Of a stretch of DNA of 64,000 bases, positions 3,919 through 59,410 are shown piece after piece. Origin of the DNA: a virus; IMG/VR virus record IMGVR_UViG_3300032163_000005, positions 1 to 64,000 of that record, one strand, 5' to 3'. The notes under the pieces are model-generated. The model had not been told where the DNA came from. It worked only from the letters and a program-made list of their open reading frames with translations, and did not search any database. Both the position numbers and the translations under genes were made by a program. Every line of letters starts with the position of its first letter. The first letter of the stretch is position 1.

Positions 3919-3939
3919 AATCATCTCTCCCACACCACT

Positions 3940-3968: not shown

Positions 3969-3976
3969 GGTTTGAT

Positions 3977-5390: not shown

Positions 5391-5414
5391 CTTCTACCTT
5401 CCTTCCCTCACCAC

Positions 5415-5443: not shown

Positions 5444-5454
5444 AAGGTTTCTTT

Positions 5455-5687: not shown

Positions 5688-6674
5688 CTAGCTCTTCTTG
5701 CGGCCTTCTTTGAGAAGTCTGAGCTGTTCGGCTTGGTCTTTGGGCGCTTTTGATGGTGTTTCACCCCAGTGCGCCGCCTTGAATTGGGCAACGAAGTGCG
5801 GATCGTGTGCATGCTCACCATCTTCATCCTTGGACCACACCTGCTTCGATTCCTTGCCGCGATTGTCCATGAAATGGAACGAGTCAGCGGCTTTGGAGAT
5901 GGCCTCAAAATTCTTAGGGACCGAGTGATACGCCTCTTTGATGACCTCTTCGGGAACATGCCGACCCTCGCTGCCTGAGCGAACCCGAGCACGTTCGAGT
6001 CCCTGTCCAACATCGAGATGACTGCCAATGACATGTACGTGGTAGCCATTCTCTTTGAGCTCTTTGAGCTTCTTCAGAAATGAGGCCTGATTTGCGCCCG
6101 TGCCATCGATGAGAACGTGGTGGCCTTCTTCAATGGCCTTCTTCGTGATCTGTTTTGCAAGAGCGCTCGACTCTTCGTGAGCCATTGCCGCCGCACCCTT
6201 GTAGGTGTTGTTTCGATCCTGAGTTGCCTTCTTGTATTCAGGAAGCTTTCCCTTGATGGAGTCAGGATCGACAACGACAAACTTGCTCGTGTCGATGCCG
6301 TTCAGACCGCTCGACTTGCCCGACGCGGGAGCTCCCATCGTCATGATGGCGATTTTCTGTTCGCCTTTTGCAACGGGCGTCTTGCCCTGGAATGCCTTCG
6401 TGATGATGGGATCGTGAACGAGAGCTTTACGAGCTTCGGTCGGCTTACCTCCTTCGTCAGGATGCTTGTCGTAGTGCTCGTGCCATGTCTCTTTCGGCAG
6501 ATCGTTTGCCGCATGATCGTTGTGCCACACACGTGGTGGGAGCTTCGCTTTAGGCGCTCTTTCTGGCTTCTTTTCCACCGCTATTTTGGGAAGAGGACTT
6601 TTGACTTCTGCAGGTGTCTTGGTTGCTTGTCCCGCGCGTGCAGAAGCCCATGTCTTCAATGCTGATGTGGCCAT
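5688..6674 (-). CDS. Zeta-toxin / polynucleotide-kinase-like P-loop protein
   Basis: 328 residues. A P-loop GAPASGKSS (about 114-122) follows a strand IAIMTMG, then VVVDPDSIKGKLPEY and VLIDGTGANQ, the order seen in zeta toxins and related kinases, which phosphorylate UDP-amino sugars or other small substrates or nucleic-acid ends. Residues 50-100 (WHNDHAANDLP...) are an extra N-terminal module. The first 15 residues, ALKTWASARAG, match the N-terminal motif of four small proteins near the head genes. No antitoxin (epsilon-like) gene is adjacent. A virion-packaged or host-directed kinase is possible but unproven. Confidence 0.8.
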   Translation of the reverse strand: MATSALKTWASARAGQATKTPAEVKSPLPKIAVEKKPERAPKAKLPPRVWHNDHAANDLPKETWHEHYDKHPDEGGKPTEARKALVHDPIITKAFQGKTPVAKGEQKIAIMTMGAPASGKSSGLNGIDTSKFVVVDPDSIKGKLPEYKKATQDRNNTYKGAAAMAHEESSALAKQITKKAIEEGHHVLIDGTGANQASFLKKLKELKENGYHVHVIGSHLDVGQGLERARVRSGSEGRHVPEEVIKEAYHSVPKNFEAISKAADSFHFMDNRGKESKQVWSKDEDGEHAHDPHFVAQFKAAHWGETPSKAPKDQAEQLRLLKEGRKKS

Positions 6675-21765: not shown

Positions 21766-21779
21766 TTGTAACTCGTTGA

Positions 21780-22148
21780 TTAGACTGAGAGACCGAGCTC
21801 CTCAACCCACCTTGCGACAGTCGGCGCAGCAACATTCAGCTTACGAGCTGCTTCGTTTAGATTGCCCGCAGCATCCTCCAAAATTCGCTTGAGAATCTTC
21901 ACAGGAGGAGTGGGAATGGCTGGACGTCCACGCCGATCACCACCAACACGCATTCGTCCTTTAAGGATCTCTTCGCTGAGTGAGAGCTCCTTGCAAAGGC
22001 GACGCAACCGAAATTGGGACATGCCGAGGACTGCAGCCGCTGCAACGTACTCAAAGTTAGCATCTCGCATCGCAGATCGAATCTGACGGATGGCCTGTTC
22101 TGGCTTGGTTGCCGCGAGAGCTGTCAACGTGTGTTGTGGTCGTGCCAT
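21780..22148 (-). CDS. Fis-like helix-turn-helix protein
   Basis: 122 residues. The C-terminal helix-turn-helix AAGNLNEAARKLNVAAPTVA is of the Fis/NtrC C-terminal type, and a second HTH-like segment (AAVLGMSQFRLRRLCKELSL) lies at residues 37-56, so the protein may have two DNA-binding modules. The linker is Arg/Gly-rich (GGDRRGRPA). The start is 7 bp after the GCGGCAAGGA element. It is followed by palindrome B and the sigma-like gene. Confidence 0.75.
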   Translation of the reverse strand: MARPQHTLTALAATKPEQAIRQIRSAMRDANFEYVAAAAVLGMSQFRLRRLCKELSLSEEILKGRMRVGGDRRGRPAIPTPPVKILKRILEDAAGNLNEAARKLNVAAPTVARWVEELGLSV

Positions 22149-23287: not shown

Positions 23288-23466
23288 GTGCCTTGAATAT
23301 GCGCTTTCACATCACACGTTGTGGCGCCGCATCCACACGGCGTCAGCTTGGTCTTCATCCACACAACGAGCTCTTGAGCACCGTTCAACGGCTTATCAAA
23401 ATAGACCGTGCGTTCGCGACGACATCCTGTGCAAACAACAATGACGTGATCGATGGCGACGCTCAT
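23284..23466 (-). CDS. Small Cys-rich protein between primase and helicase
   Basis: 60 residues. CTGCRRER and TPCGCGATTC suggest a single zinc-binding knuckle. It is coupled by ATGA-type overlaps to both the helicase and the primase genes. Possible helicase-primase adaptor by position only. Confidence 0.65.
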   Translation of the reverse strand: MSVAIDHVIVVCTGCRRERTVYFDKPLNGAQELVVWMKTKLTPCGCGATTCDVKAHIQGT

Positions 23467-24959
23467 GACCTTCGCTTCTTACCGCCACCACCAAGAAACT
23501 TCCCCATTCCCGTTGCCTGATCAAACTCACTCGTCTCACCTGGCCTTGTGTATGCAATCGATCGCCCTCCTGAAATGAGTCCGCGTGTGGGGTCCCAATC
23601 GAATTCAATCGCGAGTGGCCACGGCGCATAGCGTTGCTTGAGCACGTCTATTTCAAGCCGATCATCCGAGACGTTCTTCCACAGGAATGGACGGTGAATG
23701 CCGAGGATGCAATCCGCGATGGCGACCCAAGCACTTGAGCCCATGATGCCTTCACGTGTGGGATTCTTGTTGGTCCGTTGCTCGATGTCTTTGAGGCGTT
23801 GCTGTTGAAGAAGGATGCCGTGCACTCCGAGCTCCTCAACCATCGCTTGCTGGCGGACGAGCGCATCTTCTTCATCGTCTGGTTTGGCCTTGCCCGATGC
23901 AAGGCAACGCTTCCACAGATCAGCGATGAACACTTCGCAACCTGAATCCGAAATGAGCTGATGGATGATGTCGAGGTTCCGTTCATTCGACGGCTTCTCT
24001 GCGATGCGCTTCTTGAAAGGATTCTCTGCGAATCGAATGTATTTGTTGAGCTCGTGTTGCATCTCCTCAAGCGCGATCTGACCTTCGCGCGTGTTGACGG
24101 GTGCATCTGTCGGCGCGTTGTCAGGATTCATGAGATCTGCACGTAACCAACCAAGCTCCATCCCCGCCAAAATCTCGAGCGTGAGTCGTCCGCTCATCTC
24201 CCATGCGCAATAGAGAACACGCCGCTGCAAACGTCGAAGAGCGAGCGTGATGTTAGCTGTCACCGTGGTCTTGCCCGCTCCCGAGCTCGAAGTCACCACC
24301 GTGATCATGCCCGGCCTTGTGCCCGCAACAAGACGGCGTCTCGAGATGCCGTTTTCAGGTTCATAGAGATCGAGACCATCGATGCCGTAAGGAAACGTCT
24401 CTCGTCCTTCGCGACGCGCATCGAGGTCGCGCATGTTCTGGCGAACCATCTCTTTGCCATCGAGAAGAAACCTTCGATCGTTTCCTCCTTCGAATGCCGT
24501 CGAGACTTGTCGCGCAAACATGCGCACGCGATCTTGATCCGCCGTTGGATCGCGAACTGCCTCAAAGAAAGATGCAATAGGGCCCTTGATCGCATCGGCT
24601 CGGATCTTGTCCCAAATGACATTCTGGACGTGCCATTCAAGATTTGGCGGAACGTCTGTGCGAGCTTCGGTGATTTCTTGGATGGTCTGCGCGGCCTTCG
24701 CGCTCGAGAAGCGCTCGATCGCTTCGACGTCGTATTCAAGCCCTTGCTTTTCGAGCTCACCAAACGCGGTCCAAATCTCAGCGTGCTCACGAACGAGAAA
24801 GTGATCGACGCGGAGGATTCGAAGATGCGTCTTTCGAATCTTTCGATCGTGAGCACATGCCGCGATGACGACCGCTTCACTCACTGGATCGTGAGGTACG
24901 GAAATCGGACGAGCCTCAGCCTGAGCCTTCTTGGGCCCCGCTATCAAACGCCTTGCCAT
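23463..24959 (-). CDS. dnaB: DnaB-type replicative helicase
   Basis: 498 residues. An N-terminal DnaB-like domain (SEAVVIAACAHDRK, then LRVDHFLVREHAEIWTAF) leads to a RecA-type core with P-loop SSSGAGKTT (224-232), the DnaB motif YCAWEMSGRLTLEIL, Walker B EVFIADLWKRC and MGSSAWVAIADCIL. It is predicted to be the 5'-3' hexameric helicase at the fork. It begins MARRLIAGPK, one of the MARR-type N-termini, and ends GGGGKKRRS. Confidence 0.9.
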   Translation of the reverse strand: MARRLIAGPKKAQAEARPISVPHDPVSEAVVIAACAHDRKIRKTHLRILRVDHFLVREHAEIWTAFGELEKQGLEYDVEAIERFSSAKAAQTIQEITEARTDVPPNLEWHVQNVIWDKIRADAIKGPIASFFEAVRDPTADQDRVRMFARQVSTAFEGGNDRRFLLDGKEMVRQNMRDLDARREGRETFPYGIDGLDLYEPENGISRRRLVAGTRPGMITVVTSSSGAGKTTVTANITLALRRLQRRVLYCAWEMSGRLTLEILAGMELGWLRADLMNPDNAPTDAPVNTREGQIALEEMQHELNKYIRFAENPFKKRIAEKPSNERNLDIIHQLISDSGCEVFIADLWKRCLASGKAKPDDEEDALVRQQAMVEELGVHGILLQQQRLKDIEQRTNKNPTREGIMGSSAWVAIADCILGIHRPFLWKNVSDDRLEIDVLKQRYAPWPLAIEFDWDPTRGLISGGRSIAYTRPGETSEFDQATGMGKFLGGGGKKRRS

Positions 24960-24965: not shown

Positions 24966-25193
24966 CTAACGCGGAATTGGAACAGGCGACGTTTGATCGT
25001 AAGTCTCGGGATGCTCCTCAACGGTCATCAGAATCAATCGCACTTGCATCGGATCCATCGATAGCTCACTCACAATTTGTTCTGGCGTTTTGCCCTGATC
25101 ATGAAGCCAACGCAGCACACGTGCCCGGTGGTGCAGATAGACGGCCCATGGGTGAGAAGTCTTCGTGAGATCAGTGCTTGGAGGTGCGATCAC
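24966..25193 (-). CDS. Small unknown protein
   Basis: 75 residues with GTG start at 25193 overlapping the upstream stop. The middle (RARVLRWLHDQGKTPEQIVS, then ELSMDPMQVRLILMT) looks like a small helix-turn-helix. It precedes the helicase by 6 bp. Function unknown. Confidence 0.65.
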   Translation of the reverse strand: MIAPPSTDLTKTSHPWAVYLHHRARVLRWLHDQGKTPEQIVSELSMDPMQVRLILMTVEEHPETYDQTSPVPIPR

Positions 25194-25732
25194 GTGCCCT
25201 GCTCCTTACGCGAATGACGCGGACTGAACTTTTCGACTTTCCAATCGGTGAGCAACGTCCGCGCGAACATCAGTCGCCACGTGATGCGAAAGTGTGGGCG
25301 CTGATTTTCAATGCGCCACTTGTGTTTGCTCGCTTCACGTTTCCACGTCCACCGAAAGAATTCCGCCATGATGTTGGCGTCATTATCGAATTCGTTCTTA
25401 AGCATGCGCGCCGCCGCACACGCTGCGAATTTGCGCTCTTTGGTTCCGAGCTCGCCTGGCTCTACGCCATAGACATGCGTGTGAAGCCCTTGGTAGAGCG
25501 CGACGAACACGAGTGGCTTTGCTCCCGCCCAATCCTCTGTCTCCGTCCGCTTCTCAGCTTCGGCGAGAGCCTTGTTCATCGAGCTCGATGCCACTCCGTT
25601 TCTTGGAGGAGTCTTCGACTTGTTGGCTTGCGCCCAATCACCAAGGGATGCAGGAGGTTTGGATTCTGGTTCATCCAGGTAACCCTTCGCCGCCAAGATC
25701 TCGGACTGAGGATCTCTCTTGCGCGCGGTCAT
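25190..25732 (-). CDS. Unknown replication-operon protein
   Basis: 180 residues. The N-terminal 60 residues are polar and Pro-rich; residues 75-165 are helical with many Trp residues (NIMAEFFRWTWKREASKHKW, then FRITWRLMFARTLL). It lies between a zinc-motif gene and the helicase with short overlaps on both sides. A helicase loader or fork accessory role is plausible from context but no motif supports it. Confidence 0.65.
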   Translation of the reverse strand: MTARKRDPQSEILAAKGYLDEPESKPPASLGDWAQANKSKTPPRNGVASSSMNKALAEAEKRTETEDWAGAKPLVFVALYQGLHTHVYGVEPGELGTKERKFAACAAARMLKNEFDNDANIMAEFFRWTWKREASKHKWRIENQRPHFRITWRLMFARTLLTDWKVEKFSPRHSRKEQGT

Positions 25733-26238
25733 GATGCCTTCGTCTCATTGAAGAGCTCCCTCAGCGATTGTGTGAATGCTTGGCGCTTTGCGCGACGTTC
25801 GACATCCGCAAAAGCTCTGAGCTCCTCCATCAAACGCATCCCCGCATGAACGCGCGTTTCTCCCTTTCGAACAGTCGTTGAAGCGGAGAAGGGCCCGACG
25901 CGATACGAGCAAAACTGTCGTGGCGTGTAGAGCTCTTCACCCCAAGTTACTGTTATAGTTTCTTTCTCGTTCCCATCGAGCACTTCGAATGGTTTCTCGT
26001 TGGGTGGCTCGTGTTTTGACGGCTTGGCGGGTGGTGGATCGATCGTCGTTGCATTTGCGTGAGAGAGCCCCGCCTTACACGTCGCGCATGCCCACGTGAT
26101 CTTGTCGATCTGTTTGCATTCTGCAGAGAGCATTTTGCTCTTGCAGAAAGGACATGCGAACGCCTCAGGTGGAACCAATCCTTGAGGTTGTACGGGTTCT
26201 GAAGATGGAGTCCCGTTCTCTAGTCGACGTCGCGCCAT
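25729..26238 (-). CDS. Unknown protein with zinc-ribbon motif and MARR N-terminus
   Basis: 169 residues starting MARRRLENGT. CPFCKSKML...CKQ...CATCKAG (about 34-66) is a two-knuckle zinc motif; then a Pro/Lys linker and a helical C-terminus (FADVERRAKRQAFTQSLREL). It overlaps the next gene by ATGA. Probably nucleic-acid binding; function unknown. Confidence 0.65.
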   Translation of the reverse strand: MARRRLENGTPSSEPVQPQGLVPPEAFACPFCKSKMLSAECKQIDKITWACATCKAGLSHANATTIDPPPAKPSKHEPPNEKPFEVLDGNEKETITVTWGEELYTPRQFCSYRVGPFSASTTVRKGETRVHAGMRLMEELRAFADVERRAKRQAFTQSLRELFNETKAS

Positions 26239-33516: not shown

Positions 33517-33539
33517 GCGCTTCAGTCCACCTTAGAGAT

Positions 33540-33563
33540 TTTAGACAGATCGATCTGTCTAAA
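33540..33563. repeat. 24 bp perfect palindrome, copy C
   Basis: The same 24 bp core as copies A, B and D; the outermost pair is broken (T instead of G). It lies 24 bp after the stop of the J-like gene and 24 bp before the ATG of the next gene, preceded in the transcript by AGTTACAG. Confidence 0.95.
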
Positions 33564-33587
33564 CCTGTAACTCTACGAAACCACGAA

Positions 33588-34703
33588 TCAAACCACCGTA
33601 ATATTGGCCAAAGTCGTTCGGATCGTCTGCCCTGTTGTGGGCACGAGGTCACCGGTTGGCGTGACGATGGTGCTGTCGTTCACGATGAGTCCATCCTCGA
33701 CGTAACGCTGCAAAACAGAGTTGAGCTCCGCGCGGTAGAGCGTCCCATTGACCGGAAGGCTGTTCACGAAGACTTCAACAGCGGCTTTGATGTTGTCAGT
33801 GAGTGTCGCTGTGTCGATGTTGGCGCGGAATGTCAGATGAAGGCTGATGTTGACGATGAGCGGAACAGATGTGGACACGAGAACCTGGATGCCCCCCGCG
33901 CGATATTCGTTGAGCGCGGCGTAAACGAGACTCGCGAGTTGATCAGAAGCAACGCCCGACGAATCAGAGATGAAGAGCTGAACAAGTCGCGCTGGCTGCC
34001 CGCCTGTCGACAAGACTTCGATCGCCATCGCTGAGACGACACCAGGAACCGTCTTCGCACCAAACTCGATGGCTGCGAGAATCCCGCGTCGTGCGGTCCG
34101 CCAGAAATCTCGCAAACGGTTTTTGAACGTCTCGTTGTCTTCGGCATCTTCACCACCCGCTGTCGCCGCTGCGTTGATGACAGTGAGCGTGCGATCGAAG
34201 AGATCACCGGGACTCGAGAACCGTCGAATGTTCTCTTTGTCGACCTGCGTTGCTTTACCTGCGACCACGGCGCGAACATCGGCGCGTGATACAAGATCCA
34301 ACACACCAAACGATGCCGTCGTTGTGGTGATGTACTCAACGCCTGTAAGCGTTCCAAGCTTCGTTCCAATGGGAACCGACCCTGCTCCACCCGCCACTGT
34401 CACGCGCGAGATGGTGACCTCTCCAAGCGCAGGAGAGGCGCCCTTCCTGAGCTCTTGGTAGCGATCAAACGCGTACCGATCCAGGTCTTCATCCGTCTCG
34501 CACCCATCGAGCGTGAGAGCGGCTGTTCGTCCACCGAGTTGCGCGATGCACGCCGCTGCGAGGATGGCTGAAGTCCCCGCGATGATGTTGGACTCCGAGC
34601 CTTCGATGTTGACCTGGTTGGGATCGATCTTTGTGTTGCGCGACGTGACATAGTCACGTGCGAGCGTAAATAATTGGCTGCGCGTCGGAAGGTCGGGAGG
34701 CAT
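33588..34703 (-). CDS. Baseplate J-like protein
   Basis: 371 residues. The arrangement GSESNIIAGTSAILAAACIA, then PALGEVTISRVT and GSVPIGTKL, then EDAEDNETFKNRLRDFWRTARRG and YRAGGIQVLV is that of the Baseplate_J family (P2 gpJ, Mu gp47, T4 gp6 core). It forms the wedge ring of contractile-tail baseplates. Its neighbours, a gp25-like and a spike protein, fit. Confidence 0.88.
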   Translation of the reverse strand: MPPDLPTRSQLFTLARDYVTSRNTKIDPNQVNIEGSESNIIAGTSAILAAACIAQLGGRTAALTLDGCETDEDLDRYAFDRYQELRKGASPALGEVTISRVTVAGGAGSVPIGTKLGTLTGVEYITTTTASFGVLDLVSRADVRAVVAGKATQVDKENIRRFSSPGDLFDRTLTVINAAATAGGEDAEDNETFKNRLRDFWRTARRGILAAIEFGAKTVPGVVSAMAIEVLSTGGQPARLVQLFISDSSGVASDQLASLVYAALNEYRAGGIQVLVSTSVPLIVNISLHLTFRANIDTATLTDNIKAAVEVFVNSLPVNGTLYRAELNSVLQRYVEDGLIVNDSTIVTPTGDLVPTTGQTIRTTLANITVV

Positions 34704-34720
34704 GCCCCGACCTTATCAGC

Positions 34721-35602
34721 TCACCCCGCTGTGTTGAACGGAACCTCGAAATTGGACGGCGCGCCTTGCTTCGGTGTGACGAAGATCTGAAAGCGCACGA
34801 TGTTTGGGTTCTGTCGATCGATGATGGCTTTCACTGTGGCGTTGGCAACGTCTGGTTCTTGAAGGATCTGCACTTGTGCGTCCGCCTGTACTGCGGCGAG
34901 ACGTGCAGCGACAAGGAGCTGTTTGCCGAGATACGGAATGCCCACGCCGTATCCAGGAAGGTGCGCGAAGGCATTCTTCTTCGTGATGAGTCGTCGAATA
35001 ATGCGCTTGCGCATCTGGTCACTGCCTTGATCAAACGAGTAGTCACCCGTGGAGTCTGTTCGGAGCGTCCCAAGAAGTGACTCGAGCCCCGGAGCTCCCG
35101 AGAGAAGCGTTCCGCCGAGAGATTGAGGATTGGCGATGTCGCGTGATTGCTTCGCCGTGTCGAAGCTCGGAGGCACGATTTGTTTGAAGACCGCGGGGAT
35201 GGAGAGTGTATCGCCAGGGATGAATTCGGTGAGATCTTCGTTGTAGACCGCGTTCACATCAAGTGTGTATTGAGCGGGATGTGAGGTGAGCGGACGATCG
35301 AGTGTGAGATCAACGTAATGTCCAACATTGATTGGATCGACATCGCTGAGCTCTACGCGAACGACGGTTGCAAGCCGAGCTACTTGCCCATCTGACCCCA
35401 TGGTTGATGTGTCAGGAGTTAGCGACCATTTATTAGGAGTGCTCGCATCGAACGAATCGAGAAGCCCGTTCAGAAAAACACGTTGGTTGAACGCAACGCG
35501 AATGACGTTTTCACGGATAGCGAGGGCGGCAACAAGCGCAAAGGTGGCGTCATCATCTCCCCACGGAAGATCCCCCCACGGACCACTTCCCCAACCTGGC
35601 AT
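34721..35602 (-). CDS. Baseplate wedge protein with gp25/W-like domain
   Basis: 293 residues from MPGWGSGPWG, ATG 35602 three bases after the upstream stop. The N-terminal 130 residues are beta-rich; the C-terminal part (RKRIIRRLITKKNAFAHLPG, YGVGIPYLGKQL, then IIDRQNPNIVRFQIFV) follows the gp25/gpW pattern, in which the conserved T-x-x-G-x-R/Y-G region contacts the sheath. The N-terminal extension makes it about twice the usual gp25 size. Confidence 0.7.
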   Translation of the reverse strand: MPGWGSGPWGDLPWGDDDATFALVAALAIRENVIRVAFNQRVFLNGLLDSFDASTPNKWSLTPDTSTMGSDGQVARLATVVRVELSDVDPINVGHYVDLTLDRPLTSHPAQYTLDVNAVYNEDLTEFIPGDTLSIPAVFKQIVPPSFDTAKQSRDIANPQSLGGTLLSGAPGLESLLGTLRTDSTGDYSFDQGSDQMRKRIIRRLITKKNAFAHLPGYGVGIPYLGKQLLVAARLAAVQADAQVQILQEPDVANATVKAIIDRQNPNIVRFQIFVTPKQGAPSNFEVPFNTAG

Positions 35603-40328: not shown

Positions 40329-41627
40329 CTAGAGCGAACTGGGGTGATTGCCGAGTGCTGGGATGATGAGCACAGCACCAGGCAGAAATGATGGCTGGTA
40401 AAGCGGAAGCTTGTTCGCTCGAAGGATGTCGGATCCGTGGTCGGGCGTCTTGTAATACTGAATCGAGACCTTCTGAGGTGTGTCGCCTTCATGGCAAACA
40501 TGGACGCCGAGAACCTGTCCCGCCCGCGTCGTTTGCGACTCTTGGACCGAGATGACGGGAGCTCCTCCACGCTGCACGAGTGGAGCTCGAAGACGAAGCG
40601 CCAGATCTCGCGAAGATTCGGCTGTGAGTCGTGCTTGCTCGGCAACAGACGCGAAATAACGATTCGCTCGAAGCAGTGATGCCACGCGCGTCTTGTTGGC
40701 TTGAACCTCGGGTGGTTGTCGCCCAAGCGTATCGATCAAGTTGATCGCGATGGACTGCGTGTTTTTCGCAAGATTGATGAAGCTGCCCGTGATGGCCGCT
40801 GGCTGCGTTCGAAACGTGTTGATGACTGAGCCAAGCTGTTTGATCTGCGAGACGTTCTGTTGGATCTGCCGATTGAACGAATTGACGGCTTGAAGTGGTG
40901 CGTTGGCGAGGGCTTCGAATTGCCCAAGCGAGAATTTGACTGCGCTTTTTCGAACGTCTTTTTTCGCCTTCACGATCGATGACTCAAGCGCGAAATTGAT
41001 GCCTGCTGCGTTCACAAGAAGTGCGTTCGAGGCTGCATCGAGATCTTCATCCGATCGAACGCTGACCACGCGGTCTTGAGTGCCGCCACGTGATGCCCAG
41101 TTGAATTCAACAGTCCATCCAATGTCCGTGTGACGGATGAATGAAAAGTGCGCGTTCTTGATCAGGCCTTCGCGAAGGATCTGCGTGTTCTTGAGTTGAG
41201 AAAACCCGCTTGCGCTGTTTCCTTGGCCTTCGTTCGCATTGACAGACCACGTCACGCGAAGCCGAATACCTGAACGACCAATGAGCTCGAACGCCTCTCG
41301 GAGGCCTTGTGGATCGATGATTGAAACTTCGGCGCCTTGATCGTTGGTGAACCGACATGGGGTTCTGCTGAGACGCGTACGACGCCAATCGCCTTGCCAC
41401 GTGGAAGGGAGCTCGCGTGGTCCTAGGTTTTGCTGCGTCGCCTCAACGGGGTTACCTGGATACCATGTGGTGATGACGTTGTTTTCGAAGGCCCACTCCG
41501 AGCCCATGAAAGGAAGCCCCGATCCCAAGAGCACGATGCGACGTGGCTTCTTTCCCGGTCCTGCAGGACCAGTCTCCTCGATGATCAACGTAGAGTCGTA
41601 ACCGAGGGTTGTTGGATCGAAGGGCAC
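40329..41627 (-). CDS. Baseplate/tail protein with LysM-like C-terminus
   Basis: 432 residues. The N-terminal half (GSGLPFMGSEWAFENNVITT) is unassigned beta structure, the middle is helical, and residues about 375-425 (VHVCHEGDTPQKVSIQYY, then ILRANKLPLYQPSFLPGAVL) have the spacing of a LysM domain. LysM-bearing proteins of this size stand beside hub genes in contractile tails (T4 gp53 and P2 gpX-like roles). Confidence 0.65.
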   Translation of the reverse strand: MPFDPTTLGYDSTLIIEETGPAGPGKKPRRIVLLGSGLPFMGSEWAFENNVITTWYPGNPVEATQQNLGPRELPSTWQGDWRRTRLSRTPCRFTNDQGAEVSIIDPQGLREAFELIGRSGIRLRVTWSVNANEGQGNSASGFSQLKNTQILREGLIKNAHFSFIRHTDIGWTVEFNWASRGGTQDRVVSVRSDEDLDAASNALLVNAAGINFALESSIVKAKKDVRKSAVKFSLGQFEALANAPLQAVNSFNRQIQQNVSQIKQLGSVINTFRTQPAAITGSFINLAKNTQSIAINLIDTLGRQPPEVQANKTRVASLLRANRYFASVAEQARLTAESSRDLALRLRAPLVQRGGAPVISVQESQTTRAGQVLGVHVCHEGDTPQKVSIQYYKTPDHGSDILRANKLPLYQPSFLPGAVLIIPALGNHPSSL

Positions 41628-41630: not shown

Positions 41631-41837
41631 TCACGCTCCGCGTTCCAACATACTCCGCGCCCACAACTTGAGGGGGTTGGGCTTGCCGCCCTTCACGTTG
41701 GGCGCATCCTGACCGGAAGGTGAGAGGCTTTCGGATTCGTCCTCCAAATCGCTTGGAGAGACGTCTTCATCGAGGGGTTGTCGCGCTCCGCTACGGGGGT
41801 TCAGAGCCGTTTTGCCGATCATGGTGGGCATTGCCAT
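41631..41837 (-). CDS. Small unknown protein between tape measure and baseplate genes
   Basis: 68 residues, MAMPTMIGKT, with an acidic Ser-rich middle (DEDVSPSDLEDESESLSPSG) and a basic end. It is 3 bp from the next gene. Probably disordered. Confidence 0.6.
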   Translation of the reverse strand: MAMPTMIGKTALNPRSGARQPLDEDVSPSDLEDESESLSPSGQDAPNVKGGKPNPLKLWARSMLERGA

Positions 41838-41858: not shown

Positions 41859-43676
41859 CTATGTTGACGTGCGCGCTCCCAGTCGGGCAAGACCGTGTTG
41901 CGCGATATCGGTTCGGAACACGATGGCCACACGCTCTGGATCTTCGTCTTTGAAATCCTGATTCACATTGATCGAGCCTGTGAAGGTCTGATTGATGTTG
42001 GGAGTTTTTCCGATGGGAAGTTTTGCCTTGGTCGCTTCCGTGCGGCTCGTTTCAACCTGTTCGGCGATGTTGCTCAAACCAAGGGAATTAAGCTTGGCGA
42101 TGAACGCATCAAGACCTCCCTTGACAACATTGTCGCCGCCTTTGACCAATGCATCTTTGAGCTTTTCGCTTCCGTCCAGAAATGTTGCAGCCGCTTTCAT
42201 GGATTCCGCATCATTGAAGCCGGATGCTTCCTCCCATGCTTTGGAAAATGCTGTTGCATTGCCGCCGATCGCCGCACGAGCTTGGGCATTAACGTCTTCC
42301 ATAATCATCGCGTGATTTTTCATCGCGAATTGCATGTCCTTGTCGAAGTCTTCGAGAGCTCCACCTGCATCTGCATAGGCAGCGCGCGCAGATACAACTC
42401 CCGCTTTTTTCTCAAACCCAACGGCACCCTCTTTTGAGCGTACCCCTGCCATCGCAGCTTCTTTGCCTTTGGATAGTGCCTCTTGTTGTGCAGCGGCCTT
42501 CCCACCCTCTCCGAGCTTCGAAGCCTTATCAATCACCGATCCCAAAAAACTGCCCGCTTGCTGAACGCCTTTCACGGTCAGCAACATCACGTCTTTCATG
42601 GCCCTAGCAACATCTCTAAAAGATTTCGCAAGAAGACCGCGATTGTCATAGATGTATTGAAACGTTGTTCGAAGATCGGCCATTGGTCCTGTCGTGGCGT
42701 TCATTTCAATCGCCATACTTTTCGCGATGCCCATGAGCTCGTCAACAAATGGACCTGCAGCTTTGACTCCGAGAGCCATCGTGTTACCGAAATTCACCGC
42801 AATGCTTCCAAGAAGCGCGTGATTGTCCTGCAACCATCCATGAACTTTGCCCATAACCGGACCGATGGCTTTGACAATCGGAGCGCCTGCAGCCGCGGCT
42901 AGCCGATCAACGAAGAGCTCCATTCCCTTGGTCATCTCTCCAATACCAAGAGGAACATCCTTCATCTTTTTACCCATTGCAGCGACAGCCTTTTCCGCCA
43001 ACTTCATCTGAGCTTCTGGCGACATCTTTTGCATCTGTTGCGCGACAGATTTGGCGTTGCCCTTGAGGAGATGAGTTGCTGAAATCATTCCGACGATTGG
43101 ATTTTTCGCACGGATGATTCCCATCTCAATGGCTTCGAAAGCTTCGGAGATTCCCTCGGCGCCTTGTGGAATGGCGCGACCTGCCGACGCCATGGCTTCT
43201 GTGAGCTCGACCGCTTGATCAATGGTCTTTCCACCACGTTCAATCACGTTAGTAAATGTCGCCATCATCGCATCTCGAGTTTGTCCCGATGCAAAGGCAA
43301 CGCTCTCGAGTTGATCTTGAAGATCGCCAGCAACGTCCTTCATGTCTTTGAAGGACGTTCCGGACTCATCAAGCAAAGTCAACGTTCCGGCAAGCGCTTT
43401 GACTTGAGCAGCGCTCTCCATGTACGCGCTTGCAGCGCCAGTCGCGGCACCGATCATTACTGAGCCAGCGGCTACCGCTGCACCTGCGGCAACACCTAAT
43501 CCGAGCTTCGCGGCGTCACCAACTCCACCCCAAATCTTTTTTCCTTCGAGAACGCCGCCATGCCATTTCTTCTGGCTCTTGTTGACATTGGAGATTCCAT
43601 CTCTGAGCTTTTCAGTCTCCTTCTTTGCATTGGAGTCAATGACGAGCCGAACGTGAACTTCTGCAGCTTCAGTCAT
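41859..43676 (-). CDS. Tail tape measure protein
   Basis: 605 residues. Long helical Ala/Gly-rich protein with a hydrophobic segment (LGLGVAAGAAVAAGSVMIGA) near residue 60-80, and KGVQQAGSFLGSVIDKASKL later. Position directly after the chaperone pair is diagnostic. Its length would imply a fairly short tail if the usual proportionality (about 1.5 angstrom per residue) holds, which is inference. The start overlaps the chaperone frame by 4 bp. Confidence 0.88.
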   Translation of the reverse strand: MTEAAEVHVRLVIDSNAKKETEKLRDGISNVNKSQKKWHGGVLEGKKIWGGVGDAAKLGLGVAAGAAVAAGSVMIGAATGAASAYMESAAQVKALAGTLTLLDESGTSFKDMKDVAGDLQDQLESVAFASGQTRDAMMATFTNVIERGGKTIDQAVELTEAMASAGRAIPQGAEGISEAFEAIEMGIIRAKNPIVGMISATHLLKGNAKSVAQQMQKMSPEAQMKLAEKAVAAMGKKMKDVPLGIGEMTKGMELFVDRLAAAAGAPIVKAIGPVMGKVHGWLQDNHALLGSIAVNFGNTMALGVKAAGPFVDELMGIAKSMAIEMNATTGPMADLRTTFQYIYDNRGLLAKSFRDVARAMKDVMLLTVKGVQQAGSFLGSVIDKASKLGEGGKAAAQQEALSKGKEAAMAGVRSKEGAVGFEKKAGVVSARAAYADAGGALEDFDKDMQFAMKNHAMIMEDVNAQARAAIGGNATAFSKAWEEASGFNDAESMKAAATFLDGSEKLKDALVKGGDNVVKGGLDAFIAKLNSLGLSNIAEQVETSRTEATKAKLPIGKTPNINQTFTGSINVNQDFKDEDPERVAIVFRTDIAQHGLARLGARTST

Positions 43677-47718: not shown

Positions 47719-48558
47719 TCACTCCGAATCCCGCGGTCCGAATGGATCGCAGGGATCGGGAACGAACGGTTTTTCAGCGTCAATCAAGAGCTGAATGCGC
47801 GGATCAGTGGGTTGTGGGTCTTGGAGCTGAATGAGGTCGTTCGTCTGCGGATCAGCATCCACTGCAACTTCGGCCTGAACGGTGACCGGTAGATAGTTGA
47901 CCAAGCTCACGAGCGTGAACCGCATGTCGAGCGTGAGTCTGGCGCGTCGTCGGTTCAGAACATTGTCCGGTTCATCGAAGAGCTCGCGCTGTTCGAGCGA
48001 GAACGAAACGAGCTGATTGAAGTAGTCGGGCACTCGAAACCGAAGGGCGTAGCTCTGCTCAGATGGTGAGAACGCCGCTTCGAGTCCAGCGAGGATGGCG
48101 CGTCGTTCCGCCTTTTTTGCACACCAAATCTCGATGACGAGATTCTCTATGTACTCGGATTGCCACTGAATTACGGTGCCTTTGGCATAGACATCGCGCG
48201 AGTCTTCTTGCAGGTAAGTGGAGAATCCGATCGTCTCGTACGCAACCGGCACGTTGCCCGAGATGAACGCGATGGATGGGAATCGAAGGTCCGACTCGTT
48301 GTCTGGCCACTCGATGTGGATGTCATCGAGTGGGATCTGAAAGTCGATGGGAGCTCCGCGCTTCTTCGTGGTGCGGTCAACGTCACCTTCACGGAAGAAT
48401 GTGAGCTCGGAGATGTAGCGTGCGAGGATGCGAAGACATGCTGTGCGACCATCGGCCGCGGGTGGGGGCGGATTGGGCTTGGGCGGAAATCCGACAGCTC
48501 CCCAAGGAGTACCTTGAAAGAGCTTCAGAAGGCCGTCTGAGAGCTTGGGGATGCCCAT
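47719..48558 (-). CDS. Neck / tail-terminator-like protein
   Basis: 279 residues. Mixed alpha/beta with IHIEWPDNESDLRFPSIAFI and RRRARLTLDMRFTLVSLVNY. Position between the gp10-like protein and the sheath suggests a tail completion or sheath-terminator protein. Its C-terminus is Asp/Pro-rich. Recognition is by context. Confidence 0.6.
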   Translation of the reverse strand: MGIPKLSDGLLKLFQGTPWGAVGFPPKPNPPPPAADGRTACLRILARYISELTFFREGDVDRTTKKRGAPIDFQIPLDDIHIEWPDNESDLRFPSIAFISGNVPVAYETIGFSTYLQEDSRDVYAKGTVIQWQSEYIENLVIEIWCAKKAERRAILAGLEAAFSPSEQSYALRFRVPDYFNQLVSFSLEQRELFDEPDNVLNRRRARLTLDMRFTLVSLVNYLPVTVQAEVAVDADPQTNDLIQLQDPQPTDPRIQLLIDAEKPFVPDPCDPFGPRDSE

Positions 48559-49094
48559 TACTTGAAGCTCTTTCCAAGAGCTCGTTGGAGCTCCTTCTTG
48601 AGGTAGCCTTCAAGACCTTGAAGCCCCTGCTCGAGGATCCGAAGCCCGCCTTTGCCACCTGCCGATCCGCGATTGAAGATGCCCTTTTTCCTCATGCTAT
48701 GCGCGATGGCGAATGCAACGCCACGAGCGGCGTCAGTCGCGCGTTTACCCTTACCTCCAACCAACCCCTTTCGCTTGGCCCATTTCGCGAGCGCATCGAT
48801 CATCACGCGACCTGGTTTGACGTTGGCTGCGCGTACGCCGCCCTCGATAAGCGGCGCTTGTACTGACGCGTTGATGATGTCCGCACCTCGTTTGGTAGAC
48901 CGAACACGCCACGCTGCGCGATAGATGCCGCGATCTACAGGTGGAGGTTTTTGCGCGGGGATGAGTCGTACCTGTATGTCTTGAACGATGTGAAGAGCTG
49001 CAGCATGGATGGCAGTGTGTGCGGCTTTCTCAAACCCCTTCGTGATGTGGATTTGAATCTGCCCTGCTTCGTTGCTCTCGAACCGCTTGGACAT
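48558..49094 (-). CDS. HK97 gp10-like head-tail connector protein
   Basis: 178 residues. AAHTAIHAAALHIVQDIQVR and then VDRGIYRAAWRVRSTKRGAD, followed by a basic Gly-rich region (KRKGLVGGKGKRATDAA), fits the HK97-gp10 type tail completion family. It shares one base with the neck gene downstream. Start MSKRFESNEA has a usable site. Confidence 0.65.
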   Translation of the reverse strand: MSKRFESNEAGQIQIHITKGFEKAAHTAIHAAALHIVQDIQVRLIPAQKPPPVDRGIYRAAWRVRSTKRGADIINASVQAPLIEGGVRAANVKPGRVMIDALAKWAKRKGLVGGKGKRATDAARGVAFAIAHSMRKKGIFNRGSAGGKGGLRILEQGLQGLEGYLKKELQRALGKSFK

Positions 49095-49770: not shown

Positions 49771-49919
49771 CGCGGCGGATGGATACTCCGCTCGACGACG
49801 CTCTTCTCACCCGTCTTCGGATCGGTTCGTTGCTCGATGACCACGATGGGTGTCTTCGGCTTTGTCTTGATAAAGGCCGGCCGCCGACCTCGACCCCGAA
49901 TCTCAATCTCACGTCTCAT
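49767..49919 (-). CDS. Small basic protein, overlooked by length filters
   Basis: 50 residues from MRREIEIRGRGRRPAFIKTK. The start overlaps the next gene's stop region (ATGA), and the stop TAG overlaps the convergent stop of the plus-strand gene. Arg/Lys-rich N-terminus then VVIEQRTDPKTGEKSVVE, which could form a beta hairpin. Coding is supported by the tight overlap and frame; no family. Confidence 0.6.
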   Translation of the reverse strand: MRREIEIRGRGRRPAFIKTKPKTPIVVIEQRTDPKTGEKSVVERSIHPPR

Positions 49920-50215
49920 TGATCACCCTTCGGTTGCCACCAATCGGAACAATACGTTGTCGGAGACGCAGGGAGCTCCGCGCCGCCATTCCACTGTTGG
50001 AAGTTGGGCTCGTTACACGTTCCCTGTTCCCCATCAATCGCCACGAACCGACAATTGGAACATGACGATCCGCCTTCTGGGACGTTCATTCCGGGAAGGT
50101 GCCCTGCGGGAAGTGTGGCGGTTCCAAGGTTGACATCTTGTGCCAAAGGAAGACGCGCCTTTGAGTCTTGTGGTCCGCCCACCACCGACGACGCCCATTG
50201 CCGAATATCAGGCAT
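49916..50215 (-). CDS. Small Cys-rich protein with IRQWA N-terminus
   Basis: 99 residues, MPDIRQWASS. The C-terminal half SCSNCRFVAIDGEQGTCNEP and YCSDWWQPK has four Cys in a C-x2-C...C...C arrangement that recurs in phage-encoded small proteins and in high-potential iron-sulfur-like proteins; metal or cluster binding is likely. The N-terminal motif is shared with 50208-50639, 51304-51573, 51576-51776 and the zeta-like protein. Confidence 0.65.
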   Translation of the reverse strand: MPDIRQWASSVVGGPQDSKARLPLAQDVNLGTATLPAGHLPGMNVPEGGSSCSNCRFVAIDGEQGTCNEPNFQQWNGGAELPASPTTYCSDWWQPKGDQ

Positions 50216-50639
50216 TGCTCACGCTTTCATCGTACTGCCGTCGATGCATCCCATCCCACGGGCCATTCGATGTTGGGGTGTTGGCAACATACGCCGGAAC
50301 AGACAATCCTTCACGTTGATACGCGAGTGCTCGATGATGCCCATCCACTACCGTCACTGTTTTCGCGTTCGGCTTCTGAATGAGGATGATCGGCTTTCTC
50401 CAACCATTCCGAATCTTCATCTGAAACGACTCGACACGCGATGGTTCTTTGGTCGCTGTCCAACTCTCGCGATCGGAGAAGTCGATGTCCGAAAGAGGCA
50501 CGTTCGTTGGCCCTTTCCACGGCACCGATCGCACCCATGAGCGAGCTTCGGGCGGATAGTCTTCAGCCAGCTCGACATAGAGCTTCTCACCAATCGCGTT
50601 GGTCTTGGCCGTTGCCCACTTTTTCAGATCAGATGCCAT
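50208..50639 (-). CDS. ParB/sulfiredoxin-like protein with LKKWA N-terminus
   Basis: 143 residues from MASDLKKWAT; the earlier start at 50651 is unlikely. WKGPTNVPLSDIDFSDRESW is followed by VTVVDGHHRALAYQREG, the D-G-H-H-R motif of the ParB/sulfiredoxin nuclease-like superfamily. No helix-turn-helix is present, so it is not a partition protein. Similar modules occur in phage polyvalent proteins beside MuF and zeta domains. N-terminal motif shared with its neighbours. Confidence 0.75.
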   Translation of the reverse strand: MASDLKKWATAKTNAIGEKLYVELAEDYPPEARSWVRSVPWKGPTNVPLSDIDFSDRESWTATKEPSRVESFQMKIRNGWRKPIILIQKPNAKTVTVVDGHHRALAYQREGLSVPAYVANTPTSNGPWDGMHRRQYDESVSNA

Positions 50640-51303
50640 CACGCGATTCACTACTCAGATGCCCATCACGTTGCCGATCTTCACTCATGCGTTCGAGCGT
50701 GATCATCCATTGAAACTTCCCTGGATCACGAAATGGCGATGAGAGAAGTCGGAACCGCTTGCGCGTTGAGTTGGGTCTGTCTTCGACAATCTCGTAGAAG
50801 AATTCGAAGGGCTCTTCCACGCGATCACGAACGCGCACGAATGGCTGCCCAATCATCTCCGAGCTCGTTCGCGCCAGTATGTCGGGTGGGAGTGCTTGCC
50901 CCGCGCCGATGTGCGGAGCTCCGCAAGCATCGAGATAGGGCTGTGGGGGTATCTGCTTGCCCATCAGAACGTCTTCCGTAAGCTGCCCAGTGATTTCCTC
51001 AACCCGGACGCTTCCGACTGGCAGAAGGCCTGCTGAGTAGGCTGAGAGGCTCACGCTGGTCAGATCGATGACCTTGGGCCTTGGGAGAATGGGAACTTGA
51101 GCAAGGATGGTTTCGTGGCCTTCCCCTCGCTCGAGTCCGCCCCATCGCGTCCAAACGAGAAGAACGACGTAATTCCTCAGACCGAAGCTCGTGAAGCGTT
51201 GACGAAGCTTGTCGACGGTTGGTTGCAGCCTCTCAACAAGCGGAGGACCGCACGCGCCACGTGTGGCGATGCAAGTCGTACAAATGCCGCATGCGCAAGC
51301 CAC
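50629..51303 (-). CDS. Unknown protein with Cys-rich N-terminus
   Basis: 224 residues with GTG start at 51303, directly after the upstream stop and behind GGAGAAG. The first 20 residues are Cys-rich (MACACGICTTCIATRGACG). The body is beta-rich with VEEITGQLTEDVLMGKQIPP and FEFFYEIVEDRPNSTRKRF. No family recognised; probably virion or accessory. Confidence 0.6.
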   Translation of the reverse strand: MACACGICTTCIATRGACGPPLVERLQPTVDKLRQRFTSFGLRNYVVLLVWTRWGGLERGEGHETILAQVPILPRPKVIDLTSVSLSAYSAGLLPVGSVRVEEITGQLTEDVLMGKQIPPQPYLDACGAPHIGAGQALPPDILARTSSEMIGQPFVRVRDRVEEPFEFFYEIVEDRPNSTRKRFRLLSSPFRDPGKFQWMITLERMSEDRQRDGHLSSESRDGI

Positions 51304-51573
51304 TTAGAACTTCTCCGGACCTTCGTGACTTGGTGGCCCTGACTTCGACCACAATCGCTGGAATGAAACGGGAACCGATGTTTTTTTGGACTTCGGATTT
51401 GCTCGTGGACGTGTGTGATCGATTTCGATTTGCGTTCCCGACATCCCGCCGTTTTTTTGAACCGACTCAACGTGAAAATAGATGTCCTTGTCGCTGAAAG
51501 ATTGGATGTACCACTCTCCAACCTGCATCGATCCGCCGCTCTGCGCAGCCGCCCATTGTTTGATCGCTGCCAT
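51304..51573 (-). CDS. Small protein with IKQWAAA N-terminus
   Basis: 89 residues, MAAIKQWAAAQSGG, then a beta-rich stretch (WYIQSFSDKDIYFHVESVQK) and a basic tail. It lies between two genes sharing the same style of N-terminus. Function unknown. Confidence 0.6.
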   Translation of the reverse strand: MAAIKQWAAAQSGGSMQVGEWYIQSFSDKDIYFHVESVQKNGGMSGTQIEIDHTRPRANPKSKKTSVPVSFQRLWSKSGPPSHEGPEKF

Positions 51574-51575
51574 GC

Positions 51576-51776
51576 CTAAGCCGCTTTCTTCCGACGTTCA
51601 GCCCACTGCTTCGCACGTTTGGCGGGCACGAGCCCATCATCAGCCATCTCGAGGTCGTGTGCCGCTTCTTCTCCCCCGGTCTCTTCACGTTTGGAAGCAG
51701 GCTTTCTGGACGTCCAAATGGCGTGCTTCTCATCAAGTTTTTTGATGGCCTCTGCCCACTTCTTGATCGGAAGCAT
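51576..51776 (-). CDS. Small protein with IKKWAEA N-terminus
   Basis: 66 residues, MLPIKKWAEAIKKLDEKHAI, mainly helical and charged, ending KQWAERRKKAA. Adjacent to the previous gene with two bases between. Function unknown; shared N-terminal motif. Confidence 0.6.
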   Translation of the reverse strand: MLPIKKWAEAIKKLDEKHAIWTSRKPASKREETGGEEAAHDLEMADDGLVPAKRAKQWAERRKKAA

Positions 51777-53129: not shown

Positions 53130-54551
53130 CTACGCCGCGAATTCGAGCACCACTGCGCGACGGAATTGCTCCACTCCGTTTGGCGCAAGGATGTCCGAAG
53201 GCACAGGGAAGCTCGTGGAAGCGGTCCACGCGAGACCGACCTTCTGCTGCGCGCGATCGATCGGCGCACGGATGATGAGACGGATCCGTTCGGTCAAGAT
53301 CTGAATGCCGTTGTTCACGACGGTGAATTCACCAATCTTGCCCGTGACGCCCGCCTCGCTCATGAACGCCTTTTGCTCATCGAGCCAGCGTTCATAGATC
53401 GAGCCACGCCCCGTGATGACGACGCGACCAACGTTGATGCCGTTGCCATTGACGACTTCGGCTCCGAGCTCGCGCGCGTACCGCCCGATCGCACCTACGG
53501 GAGCTCCCGTTGCAGCAGATGTGTCGATGAGCTGTCCACTGTTGAGGAGCGCTGGGCTTTCCGTGTTCATGAAGAACATGACGCCAGAGAGCGTGCCGAT
53601 AAAGCCTTCCTTGTAGATGACGTGCTCAGGCAAGCTCTGATTGAGGCGCTGGAACACGGGATCTGCGAAGACTTGCGCATTCGCCAGTGGCGAGATGTGC
53701 GCGTGGTAGAAGCCGTCCTCATGCGGCGGAACCGACGCGTTGCGAAGGAACGCAACGGCGTTGATGGCTTGCTGCAAGACGAATGTGTCTGCAGGACCGA
53801 TGGCATCGATCGAATCGCCGCCCGATGCACGAACGATCCGAGGCGCCACGAGAGTTTTGATTGGCGTCCGCGTTGCAGCGAATGCCGTGCCGAGTGCCGC
53901 GCTGAGAAGCAATGTTCCTGGCCCATCGAGGTCCGCAGGATCCGCGGGAATGGTACCAATGACGTTCGCAGCCACGGCGCCGACACCAGTGCCCACTCGA
54001 ATCGCGAGCGGTGACGTGGTGCTGACGGGGGTTGGACGTGCGCTGACTGTTGGATTCAGGACGAACCGGAACCCGTTGAGCGCAGCCACCTGAATGGTAG
54101 TCGCTCCCGCAAGGAGCGCCGTGTTCGCGACGGTCTGTCCTGAGAGGTAGTTCTTGAAGAGCGCGTTTCGTGCAACACGGTTCATTGTCTGACCTGCATT
54201 CAGGCCCAACGTGTGAATCTTGCGCATGAAGAGCGATGCGTTCGCTGTTGCGCTCGTTGGCATGTCGACGTCATCCGCCGATCCAAACTGATTGAGCTCC
54301 GCCGACCATTGCTCGTTGTAGGAGCTCTGGGGTGTGAGGTCCGCACCTGGTGTGAGTGGACTAACGGCGGGCGCGAGAAGTCCGGTTCGGGTCATGAAGA
54401 CCTCATTACCGGTGTTCATCGGCCACTCTTCCGGCGCTGCTTCCGCGCGGAACGCGAGGTTCGGATAGAGCGAATCGTGGAACGCCCTCTCGATGAGACC
54501 GCGCTGGTTCAGATCGAGGATGGCAGGTGGAATGCCGAGAAAAAGAGACAT
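53130..54551 (-). CDS. Major capsid protein (HK97-like fold expected)
   Basis: 473 residues. Features of phage major capsids: an N-terminal segment LIERAFHDSLYPNLAFRAEA, FMTRTGLLAPAVSPL, a long central domain with PPHEDGFYHAHISPLANAQV, and the end NNGIQILTERIRLIIRAPID. Placement between scaffold and terminator, and a strong site (CGGAGGTCATCCAC), support high expression. No HK97-type protease is visible nearby. Confidence 0.85.
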   Translation of the reverse strand: MSLFLGIPPAILDLNQRGLIERAFHDSLYPNLAFRAEAAPEEWPMNTGNEVFMTRTGLLAPAVSPLTPGADLTPQSSYNEQWSAELNQFGSADDVDMPTSATANASLFMRKIHTLGLNAGQTMNRVARNALFKNYLSGQTVANTALLAGATTIQVAALNGFRFVLNPTVSARPTPVSTTSPLAIRVGTGVGAVAANVIGTIPADPADLDGPGTLLLSAALGTAFAATRTPIKTLVAPRIVRASGGDSIDAIGPADTFVLQQAINAVAFLRNASVPPHEDGFYHAHISPLANAQVFADPVFQRLNQSLPEHVIYKEGFIGTLSGVMFFMNTESPALLNSGQLIDTSAATGAPVGAIGRYARELGAEVVNGNGINVGRVVITGRGSIYERWLDEQKAFMSEAGVTGKIGEFTVVNNGIQILTERIRLIIRAPIDRAQQKVGLAWTASTSFPVPSDILAPNGVEQFRRAVVLEFAA

Positions 54552-55668: not shown

Positions 55669-55694
55669 GTTTAGACAGATCGATCTGTCTAAAC
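55669..55694. repeat. 26 bp perfect palindrome, copy D
   Basis: Same palindrome as copies A and B, 25 bp after the stop of the upstream gene and 25 bp before the scaffold start (GGGAGAG site between). In the transcript direction it is preceded by AAGTTACAA, as at copy B. Confidence 0.95.
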
Positions 55695-55719
55695 TTGTAA
55701 CTTCTTGATTTTGCGTGGA

Positions 55720-58284: not shown

Positions 58285-58443
58285 ATGATGAACACGGATG
58301 CTCATGGGTGTTTGACCATCACCTTCTCTCGTGCACAGATCTACGCACTAATGCGCCGTTCGCGTCCTCGCGCAAAACATCGCGTGATCAAGAAATGGGT
58401 CAACGCGTTCTTCCGAAACTGCCAAGGTCCACAGTCGTCATGA
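58285..58443 (+). CDS. Small basic protein on the plus strand, antisense to MuF gene end
   Basis: 52 residues (ATG 58285; alternatives 58282 and 58288), e.g. ITFSRAQIYALMRRSRPRAK. A good site, GCGGCAAGAAGGA, lies upstream and the last 44 bp overlap the 3' end of the MuF-type gene on the other strand. The site and composition argue for a real gene; a chance frame is not excluded. Confidence 0.4.
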   Translation: MMNTDAHGCLTITFSRAQIYALMRRSRPRAKHRVIKKWVNAFFRNCQGPQSS

Positions 58444-59410
58444 GAGGACGTGGTGGAGCTGCACCCTTTCGTTTCTCAAGCTTCCATCGCGCGTGAATCT
58501 CACCATCAGGCCGCCAAGCAAGTGTTGGCGGAATTGGCCATGATTGACGGTGTGTGACGACGATTTCACGATCGTTGGGACGATTGGGCGGATGTTGCAT
58601 CAATCCAAACCACGTCTCGAATGGCTCGTTTGGACGACGGATCTCGCCATGGCACGCGATCGAATCGCTACCCGTCCGATTGTCGAACGTCGCGCAAAGA
58701 ATCTTCACGAGATCTCCGAGTTGTTCGTGTGCTTCCTGCGTCGCTTCGAACGTCGCACGCCCATACGCGCCCATCGTCTCTGTACGAACGATGCGCTCTG
58801 ACCAAGACGCGGGAGCTCCTTGCAAAAAGGGACTCGCATCAACAATCTGTTTGCGCGTGTCTTCGAACGATGAACGTGTGAGGAGATTCGTTCGAAGAAT
58901 GTTCTCGAAGTGTCCAACCACGTTCATTCCGTAACGTTGAAGAATGCCGATTCTGGCTTTGTGCGGCTCGGCATCTGCTCCCTCGGCAGGTGTGCCACTT
59001 GAGGCAAGACGTCGGAGCACACTTGCACGAGCTCCCGATGTCGCGGCATCCATGATCGAGGATTCGTCGAGCGCGAGAGCTTGTGTCCCGATGCCCTTGT
59101 ATTGCCGCTCGGCTGCGTTGAGGTAATCGACTGTTCCTGTAGCTGCGACGCTTGCCGCTTGCTCTGCGCCATCGATTGCGAGATCACGCATTCCAGGAAG
59201 CACAAGCCCACGAAGCACATCTCGAATCTGCGCCAACGTCGCGCGCATTCGAATTTCCGTGAACGTGCCTGTTGGAGGCATCGCACGAAGCCGCTCCACG
59301 AGTTGAGTCTCAGCATCTTTGAGCATTCCTCGCGTGTTGGTTGTTCCAACCCGTTGCGCAATTCGAATCGCCGTTTCGCGATTAGCTTGGATGGCTCCTA
59401 GAACGCTCAC
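58400..59410 (-). CDS. MuF/SPP1 gp7-like minor head protein
   Basis: 336 residues. Helical N-terminus, then IVRTETMGAYGRATFEATQE and the MuF-type core CATFDNRTGSDSIACHGEIR, with HPPNRPNDREIVV. This family sits on the inner capsid surface near the portal and aids DNA packaging or ejection. Its start overlaps the portal stop by ATGA. Confidence 0.85.
   Translation of the reverse strand: MSVLGAIQANRETAIRIAQRVGTTNTRGMLKDAETQLVERLRAMPPTGTFTEIRMRATLAQIRDVLRGLVLPGMRDLAIDGAEQAASVAATGTVDYLNAAERQYKGIGTQALALDESSIMDAATSGARASVLRRLASSGTPAEGADAEPHKARIGILQRYGMNVVGHFENILRTNLLTRSSFEDTRKQIVDASPFLQGAPASWSERIVRTETMGAYGRATFEATQEAHEQLGDLVKILCATFDNRTGSDSIACHGEIRRPNEPFETWFGLMQHPPNRPNDREIVVTHRQSWPIPPTLAWRPDGEIHARWKLEKRKGAAPPRPLMTTVDLGSFGRTR

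Follow-up and report, generated by a model that had tools for sequence, protein, structure and literature searches.

A short linear tag at the termini of unrelated proteins in a family of contractile-tailed phages, and its possible role in virion targeting

Genome setting

The window, a DNA stretch of 64,000 bases, covers positions 1-64000 of a virus record of 94,023 bases, the other 30 kb of which was also analysed. Nearly all genes of this phage (G000) are carried on the minus strand. Judged by its sequence, G000 is a contractile-tailed phage with portal, MuF, scaffold, capsid, sheath, tape measure, LysM-like hub, baseplate J and replication genes. A Pfam search with the hub-like protein gave no match. 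Five proteins for which a first-pass annotation had proposed a common N-terminal tag are all encoded in the window, all on the minus strand (Table 1). Tagged ORFs are closely packed on the coding strand, those of the 66-aa and 89-aa proteins nearly overlapping (51576/51573) and those of the Cys-rich and ParB/sulfiredoxin-like proteins actually doing so (50215/50208). Most tagged genes are located between those for capsid and tail, or close to a peptidase gene upstream of the portal; the genes of the zeta-like protein and of the weaker N-terminal copy are far from structural genes.

Table 1. Tagged proteins and neighbouring genes of the phage (G000), and C-terminal ends of the junction protein in relatives
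Feature	Genome	Position	Strand	Tag or terminus	Basis or remark
66-aa protein	G000	51576..51776	-	N-terminal LPIKKWAEA (MLPIKKWAEAI)	ORF and profile scan
89-aa protein, family unknown	G000	51304..51573	-	N-terminal AAIKQWAAA (MAAIKQWAAAQ)	ORF and profile scan
ParB/sulfiredoxin-like protein, DGHHR motif	G000	50208..50639	-	N-terminal SDLKKWATA (MASDLKKWATA)	motif, AF2 model
Cys-rich protein (CxxC...C...C)	G000	49916..50215	-	N-terminal PDIRQWASS (MPDIRQWASS)	ORF
Zeta-toxin-like kinase	G000	5688..6674	-	N-terminus MATSALKTWASARAG; tag SALKTWASA, then Lys/Pro-rich linker	PF06414, E 2e-23
N-terminal tag protein	G000	72264-72830	coding	MADPLKQWANAK	outside window; profile scan
N-terminal tag protein	G000	71622-71852	coding	MPSDIKKWAAY	outside window; profile scan
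Protein with motif at residue 15	G000	76702-77226		QQLRTWARA	outside window
Weaker N-terminal copy	G000	85268-85684	coding	RVKKWARK	outside window; profile scan
C-terminal tag protein	G000	71450-71617	coding	C-terminal KPIKQWAKAKHGK	outside window; profile scan
68-aa acidic low-complexity protein	G000	41631..41837	-	C-terminal NPLKLWARSMLERGA	directly after tape measure gene
Major capsid protein	G000	53130..54551	-		context; query for finding relatives
Mu F-like minor head protein, stand-alone, 336 aa, without cargo domains	G000	58400..59410	-		weak Pfam match
Tape measure protein	G000	41859..43676	-		context; assigned from position and length
LysM-type baseplate hub-like protein	G000	40329..41627	-		named from sequence and position; borders tagged gene on far side
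Junction protein	G001			C-end NPLRQWAMKNAK	
Junction protein	G002			C-end NMLSVWAKRKSAGA	
Junction protein	G003			C-end NPLSVWVNKNKKAR	
Junction protein	G004			C-end KGLAAWAGKK	
Junction protein	G005			C-end NPLKKWAGIK	
Junction protein	G006			C-end SLADFVASYK	
Junction protein	Methylocystis MAG contig			C-end NPLQEWAKAYKK	
Junction protein	Armatimonadetes MAG contig			C-end SLTLWVNKYKSSVR	

The tagged proteins belong to different families. The zeta-like protein scores 83.1 bits against PF06414 (gathering cut-off 22.3) and is a member of the Zeta toxin-like kinases, hence a putative kinase; no counterpart was found in the relatives by gene content. In an alignment of the ParB/sulfiredoxin-like protein with 14 relatives, G-H-H-R is invariant and D nearly so, and ParBc_2 was matched in relatives. 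Its AlphaFold2 model has a confident core (pLDDT 85-96 over residues 61-90), and sulfiredoxin (Srx) and ParB are among its top matches in the PDB (best E 2.6e-3). The conserved DGHHR-type motif and the modelled ParB/Srx fold together place the protein in the ParB/sulfiredoxin superfamily. The tag falls in a helix at the N-terminus of this model, where confidence is moderate (pLDDT 60-70), and a low-confidence segment parts this helix from the ParB/Srx-like core. The Cys-rich protein has tagged relatives in G002, G003, G008, G022 and G029, and the C-end of the 66-aa protein, AKRAKQWAERRKKAA, is similar to the tag with which a protein of G029 ends (KVKQWAERRKE).

Several other features of the genome were observed. 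A perfect 26-base palindrome, GTTTAGACAGATCGATCTGTCTAAAC, occurs in four copies (16440-16481, 21740-21781, 33539-33580 and 55669-55710); one copy starts with T and one lies within the DNA polymerase ORF, in its 3' portion. That ORF (16189-19656) encodes a 1155-aa family B-like polymerase which, judged by eye, seems to carry an intein starting with CNPPEAPIWMADGSF and ending WGFASKN before C. The region 730-5454 contains repeated GTTTCTGTCAAGGTTTC, read on the minus strand as CCTTGACAGAAAC, a TTGACA-like box ahead of several small genes; these repeats are perhaps a common promoter set. A second recurrent N-terminus, MARRL(V/I), begins several proteins (8633-8845, 8867-9232, 12624-13739, 15273-16202, 23463-24959 and 25729-26238), DnaB-like and RecA-like ones among them. 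The unbiased pattern count in G000 found RRLV at 4 N-termini against 0.12 expected, and there was little sign of this N-terminus in relatives.

Copies of the motif in the genome

The 94-kb record has 131 called proteins. When their N-terminal patterns were counted with no preset motif, K.WA.A came out on top: it was found in 5, where interior windows gave an expectation of 0.03. When every ORF of 30 aa or longer was scanned with a profile, ten matches reached 20 bits or more, the next best scoring 13.6. Each of the ten is terminal in its protein and lies on the coding strand. They are the five proteins annotated earlier, three more with an N-terminal copy (two outside-window proteins and the weaker copy) and two with a C-terminal copy, the 68-aa protein and its counterpart outside the window. 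The common tag is therefore real, and the two C-terminal copies show that it is not strictly N-terminal; a search of the whole genome, which the first-pass annotation had called for, extends it to at least three more N-terminal and two C-terminal sites. The remainders of the tagged proteins are mutually unrelated, as had been claimed, and the tag is modular. Its consensus is roughly [NSD]-[PGSD]-[LI]-x-x-W-[AV]-x-[AKS]-[KR], a short linear terminal tag.

The weaker N-terminal copy was graded as such because most relatives of that protein lack the motif. For the same reason a replication-region protein (25190-25732, SLGDWAQAN at residue 30) was rejected as a tag copy and left out of the count.

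The tag in related phages

Relatives were collected through the capsid protein (26 contigs) and through the sheath (36 contigs and two MAG contigs, from Methylocystis and Armatimonadetes, that hold family members). Genes were called with a home-made caller, and start codons in high-GC relatives are uncertain. The diversity of the hub proteins was too great for their alignment to scan the whole collection. A search for a cultured relative of the phage family found none; Komagataeibacter phage phiKX1 and Streptomyces phage Kromp, considered as cultured tag carriers, have no convincing tags.

The most conserved bearer of the tag is a protein encoded at the junction between the tape measure and LysM-hub genes. 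It is of low complexity, acidic or Ser-rich, and carries L-x-x-W-A or a near variant within its last 8-25 residues in about 23 of the 25 distinct related phages with a readable junction. The exceptions are a phage (L103-L105) whose junction holds no gene, and L102, where a Cys-rich gene with an N-terminal tag replaces the junction gene. Extra tagged genes are present at this junction in G005 and G029. The 68-aa protein is the G000 copy of this family-wide bearer.

A profile trained solely on the junction-protein C-termini of other phages, with G000 excluded, was run on all relatives. At 12 bits or more and with the training sequences removed, matches were enriched 11-fold at N-termini (P 1e-6) and 10-fold at C-termini (P 3e-6) relative to interiors, and several seeming interior matches are tags behind an N-terminal extension or a miscalled start. 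Three tagged genes follow one another in G027 (34154-34879), and three are found in G005 (83748-85701). G002 has the tagged termini MSLGAWAAQRQ, MALGTWARKRS and, at a C-terminus, GGLGAWAKRKRRKAAP. Strict N-terminal scans of the relatives with [ILVM][KRQ]xWA gave almost no matches, since the first residue between L and W (x1) differs from genome to genome; when patterns were counted without bias, the relatives likewise yielded nothing.

The tag recurs on the same cargo families in different phages. Of 16 ParB/Srx-like proteins in 15 phages, 12 carry the tag at the N-terminus or close to it, three (in G004, G010 and G026) carry it at the C-terminus, which makes 15 tagged proteins, and one has no recognised tag; the chance of a loose match near either end is about 7% per protein. 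In the G001 protein the tag lies about 40 residues in, behind a disordered-looking extension. An N-terminal tag is present in 6/7 Cys-rich proteins and in all three ChaB-like proteins, and a C-terminal tag in 3/3 KSKAQ-type small proteins and in most small K-T/K-x-G-x-Q-V proteins.

Genome-specific variants

In the two positions between L and W, G000 has K/R-x, G001 has R-x, G005 has S-R twice, and three of the four G002 tags have G-x. Between non-homologous proteins, identity at these two sites was 0.37 within genomes and 0.10 between them (0/600 permutations). The table of tags was built partly by eye and partly with a first scan that required K/R/Q at x1 in G000, and restricted tests are therefore given: without G000 the values were 0.29 and 0.10, and with profile-found tags only, again without G000, 0.26 and 0.10 (0/600 permutations). 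Upstream flanking residues showed little within-genome likeness (0.18 vs 0.13; 13, 35 and 96 of 600). A weaker within-genome effect was seen downstream, so the likeness may be partly one of composition. The simplest reading of the L-W residues is a single receptor per phage, and the pattern suggests co-evolution of the tags with one phage-encoded receptor in each genome.

These comparisons bear on whether the motif might be chance, or ordinary N-terminal helices that share no function. L-x-x-W-A does describe a plain amphipathic helix, and about 4% of 25-residue stretches match its loose form. The conserved neck-region protein (48558-49094) has an internal ALAxW(A/V)xRKG helix, kept in nearly all relatives, so ordinary protein structure can also include a helix of the L-x-x-W-A type; this helix was rejected as a tag copy, its x1 being nearly always A, independent of the genome variant. 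Such an origin is nevertheless strongly disfavoured, and we consider it very improbable, given the enrichment of the held-out profile at both termini, the switch of the tag from N- to C-terminus among ParB-like proteins, and the match within genomes of residues that are otherwise free.

Function of the tag

Two of the cargo types, zeta and ParB-like, are fused to head proteins in other phages. Cyanophage PSS2 has a zeta kinase in one chain with a Phage_Mu_F domain, and in L083 the kinase is the C-terminal portion of a protein whose gene lies between those for terminase and portal. ParB-like domains have two kinds of fusion partner: in Stenotrophomonas phage DLP_3 a weak Phage_Mu_F match, next to the portal, and in Rhizobium phages a prohead protease of XkdF type. 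Iyer et al. described zeta-MuF fusions and ParB domains in late genes, with injection as their inference (PMC5512222). A conserved modular tag on unrelated proteins, taken with these fusions, is what would be expected of a virion-delivery tag.

The first-pass annotation had read the tag as a capsid-delivery signal for injected effectors. The tag itself, its position at either end, the conservation of the junction protein, the recurrence on cargo families and the genome variants are all directly supported, and the head fusions elsewhere fit delivery; the capsid as the destination is placed in doubt by the foremost bearer, a C-terminus beside the tape measure. We think it probable that this is a terminal virion-targeting tag that loads accessory proteins for delivery to the host, acting like the capsid-targeting sequence (CTS) of T4 and non-homologous to it. 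The tag would most likely be an amphipathic helix carried by a flexible linker. During virion assembly it would be bound by one phage-encoded receptor, located in the scaffold, capsid interior, portal or tail lumen, and this receptor would load otherwise unrelated accessory proteins into the particle; these would then reach the host together with the DNA. The tag would thus be a non-covalent address, in place of the MuF or prohead-protease fusions of the same domains in other phages. Helix binding, a single receptor per phage, packaging and injection are what we infer from the genomes.

The gene of the most conserved bearer belongs to the tail cluster, so tagged proteins could be destined for the tail. 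The receptor would then be the tape measure, the hub or the tube lumen, and cargo would ride in the tail as the effectors of extracellular contractile injection systems do. The bearer lies always between the tape measure and hub genes, further tagged genes occupy that junction in two phages, and N-terminal signals are used by PVC effectors (PMC11495950). The tagged genes of G000, however, are mostly placed between capsid and tail genes or near the peptidase upstream of the portal, and the cargo types are fused elsewhere to MuF and prohead protease, which are head proteins; loading through the tail tube seems unlikely to us.

The tag could also bring proteins together inside the infected cell, at a phage protein or at a compartment there, be it an assembly site, a membrane, an adaptor or a protease, with none of them packaged. 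The match of variants within a genome points to a common receptor and is silent on its location, and two tagged genes of G000 are far from structural genes. The cargo domains, however, are of the types that other phages deliver in their virions, and intracellular docking is in our view less probable still than tail loading.

Virion targeting, the reading that we prefer, can be put in a more specific form: a terminus-independent address code, with one receptor per phage, a 10-residue helical tag, an own variant in each lineage and new effectors joining by gaining the tag. For this fuller version we see the balance as even.

A papain-like cysteine peptidase (PF00112; L002:8866-9738, record 72866-73738) is encoded near the portal and conserved in many relatives. 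It may serve in head maturation, since no prohead protease of the serine type was noticed. It is absent from some long tagged genomes. The idea that the tag is a signal of this peptidase was dropped as a requirement, because the long genomes G004, G024 and G027 carry tags and gave no peptidase match.

Beyond a few model phages, the proteins that enter the host with the DNA are mostly unknown. If the tag is readable, sequence would allow virion cargo to be predicted throughout an entire family of uncultured phages, and early host-takeover proteins would be flagged. The genome-specific variants should make the receptor findable through co-variation. No description of an L-x-x-W-A tag was found in the open-access literature.

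Comparison with known systems

In phage P1, DarB has an N-terminal packaging signal, and the Dar proteins are without a common consensus (PMC9024508). The likeness lies in an N-terminal signal that sends a large accessory protein to the capsid; the difference is that here a single consensus is found in many families, at either end of the chain. Polyvalent and MuF-fused proteins (Iyer et al. 2017) likewise tie zeta kinase and ParB/Srx domains to virion proteins. They do so covalently, with effector domains in one chain and often with MuF, whereas in G000 the MuF protein stands alone and the zeta and ParB-like domains are on separate small tagged proteins. PVC particles resemble the proposed system in that varied payloads enter a contractile particle by means of N-terminal signal peptides; PVC differs in loading its tube through an AAA ATPase (Pvc15).

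The T4 CTS is the closest in form. Ten N-terminal residues are enough for targeting, and residues 4 and 7 matter most (PMC9026906); in IPII and IPIII these are the Y and F of MKTYQEFIAEA (Y-x-x-F). As in IPI-III, about ten terminal residues are common to otherwise unrelated small proteins, here putative internal proteins, and hydrophobic or aromatic residues are spaced i, i+3 (Y4/F7 in T4, L/W here). This spacing is all that is held in common, as there is no sequence identity to MKTYQEFIAEA and a profile comparison with T4 segments gave no match corresponding to the IPs. No gp21-type protease was recognised, and a T4-type cleavage site is absent from the present tag. The tag also occurs at C-termini, which is new relative to the CTS of the T4 internal proteins, and it has strong genome-specific variants. 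Because the sequence differs, cleavage is not indicated and C-termini are used, membership of the T4 CTS is not claimed; the tag would rather be a second, independent targeting code beside that of T4.
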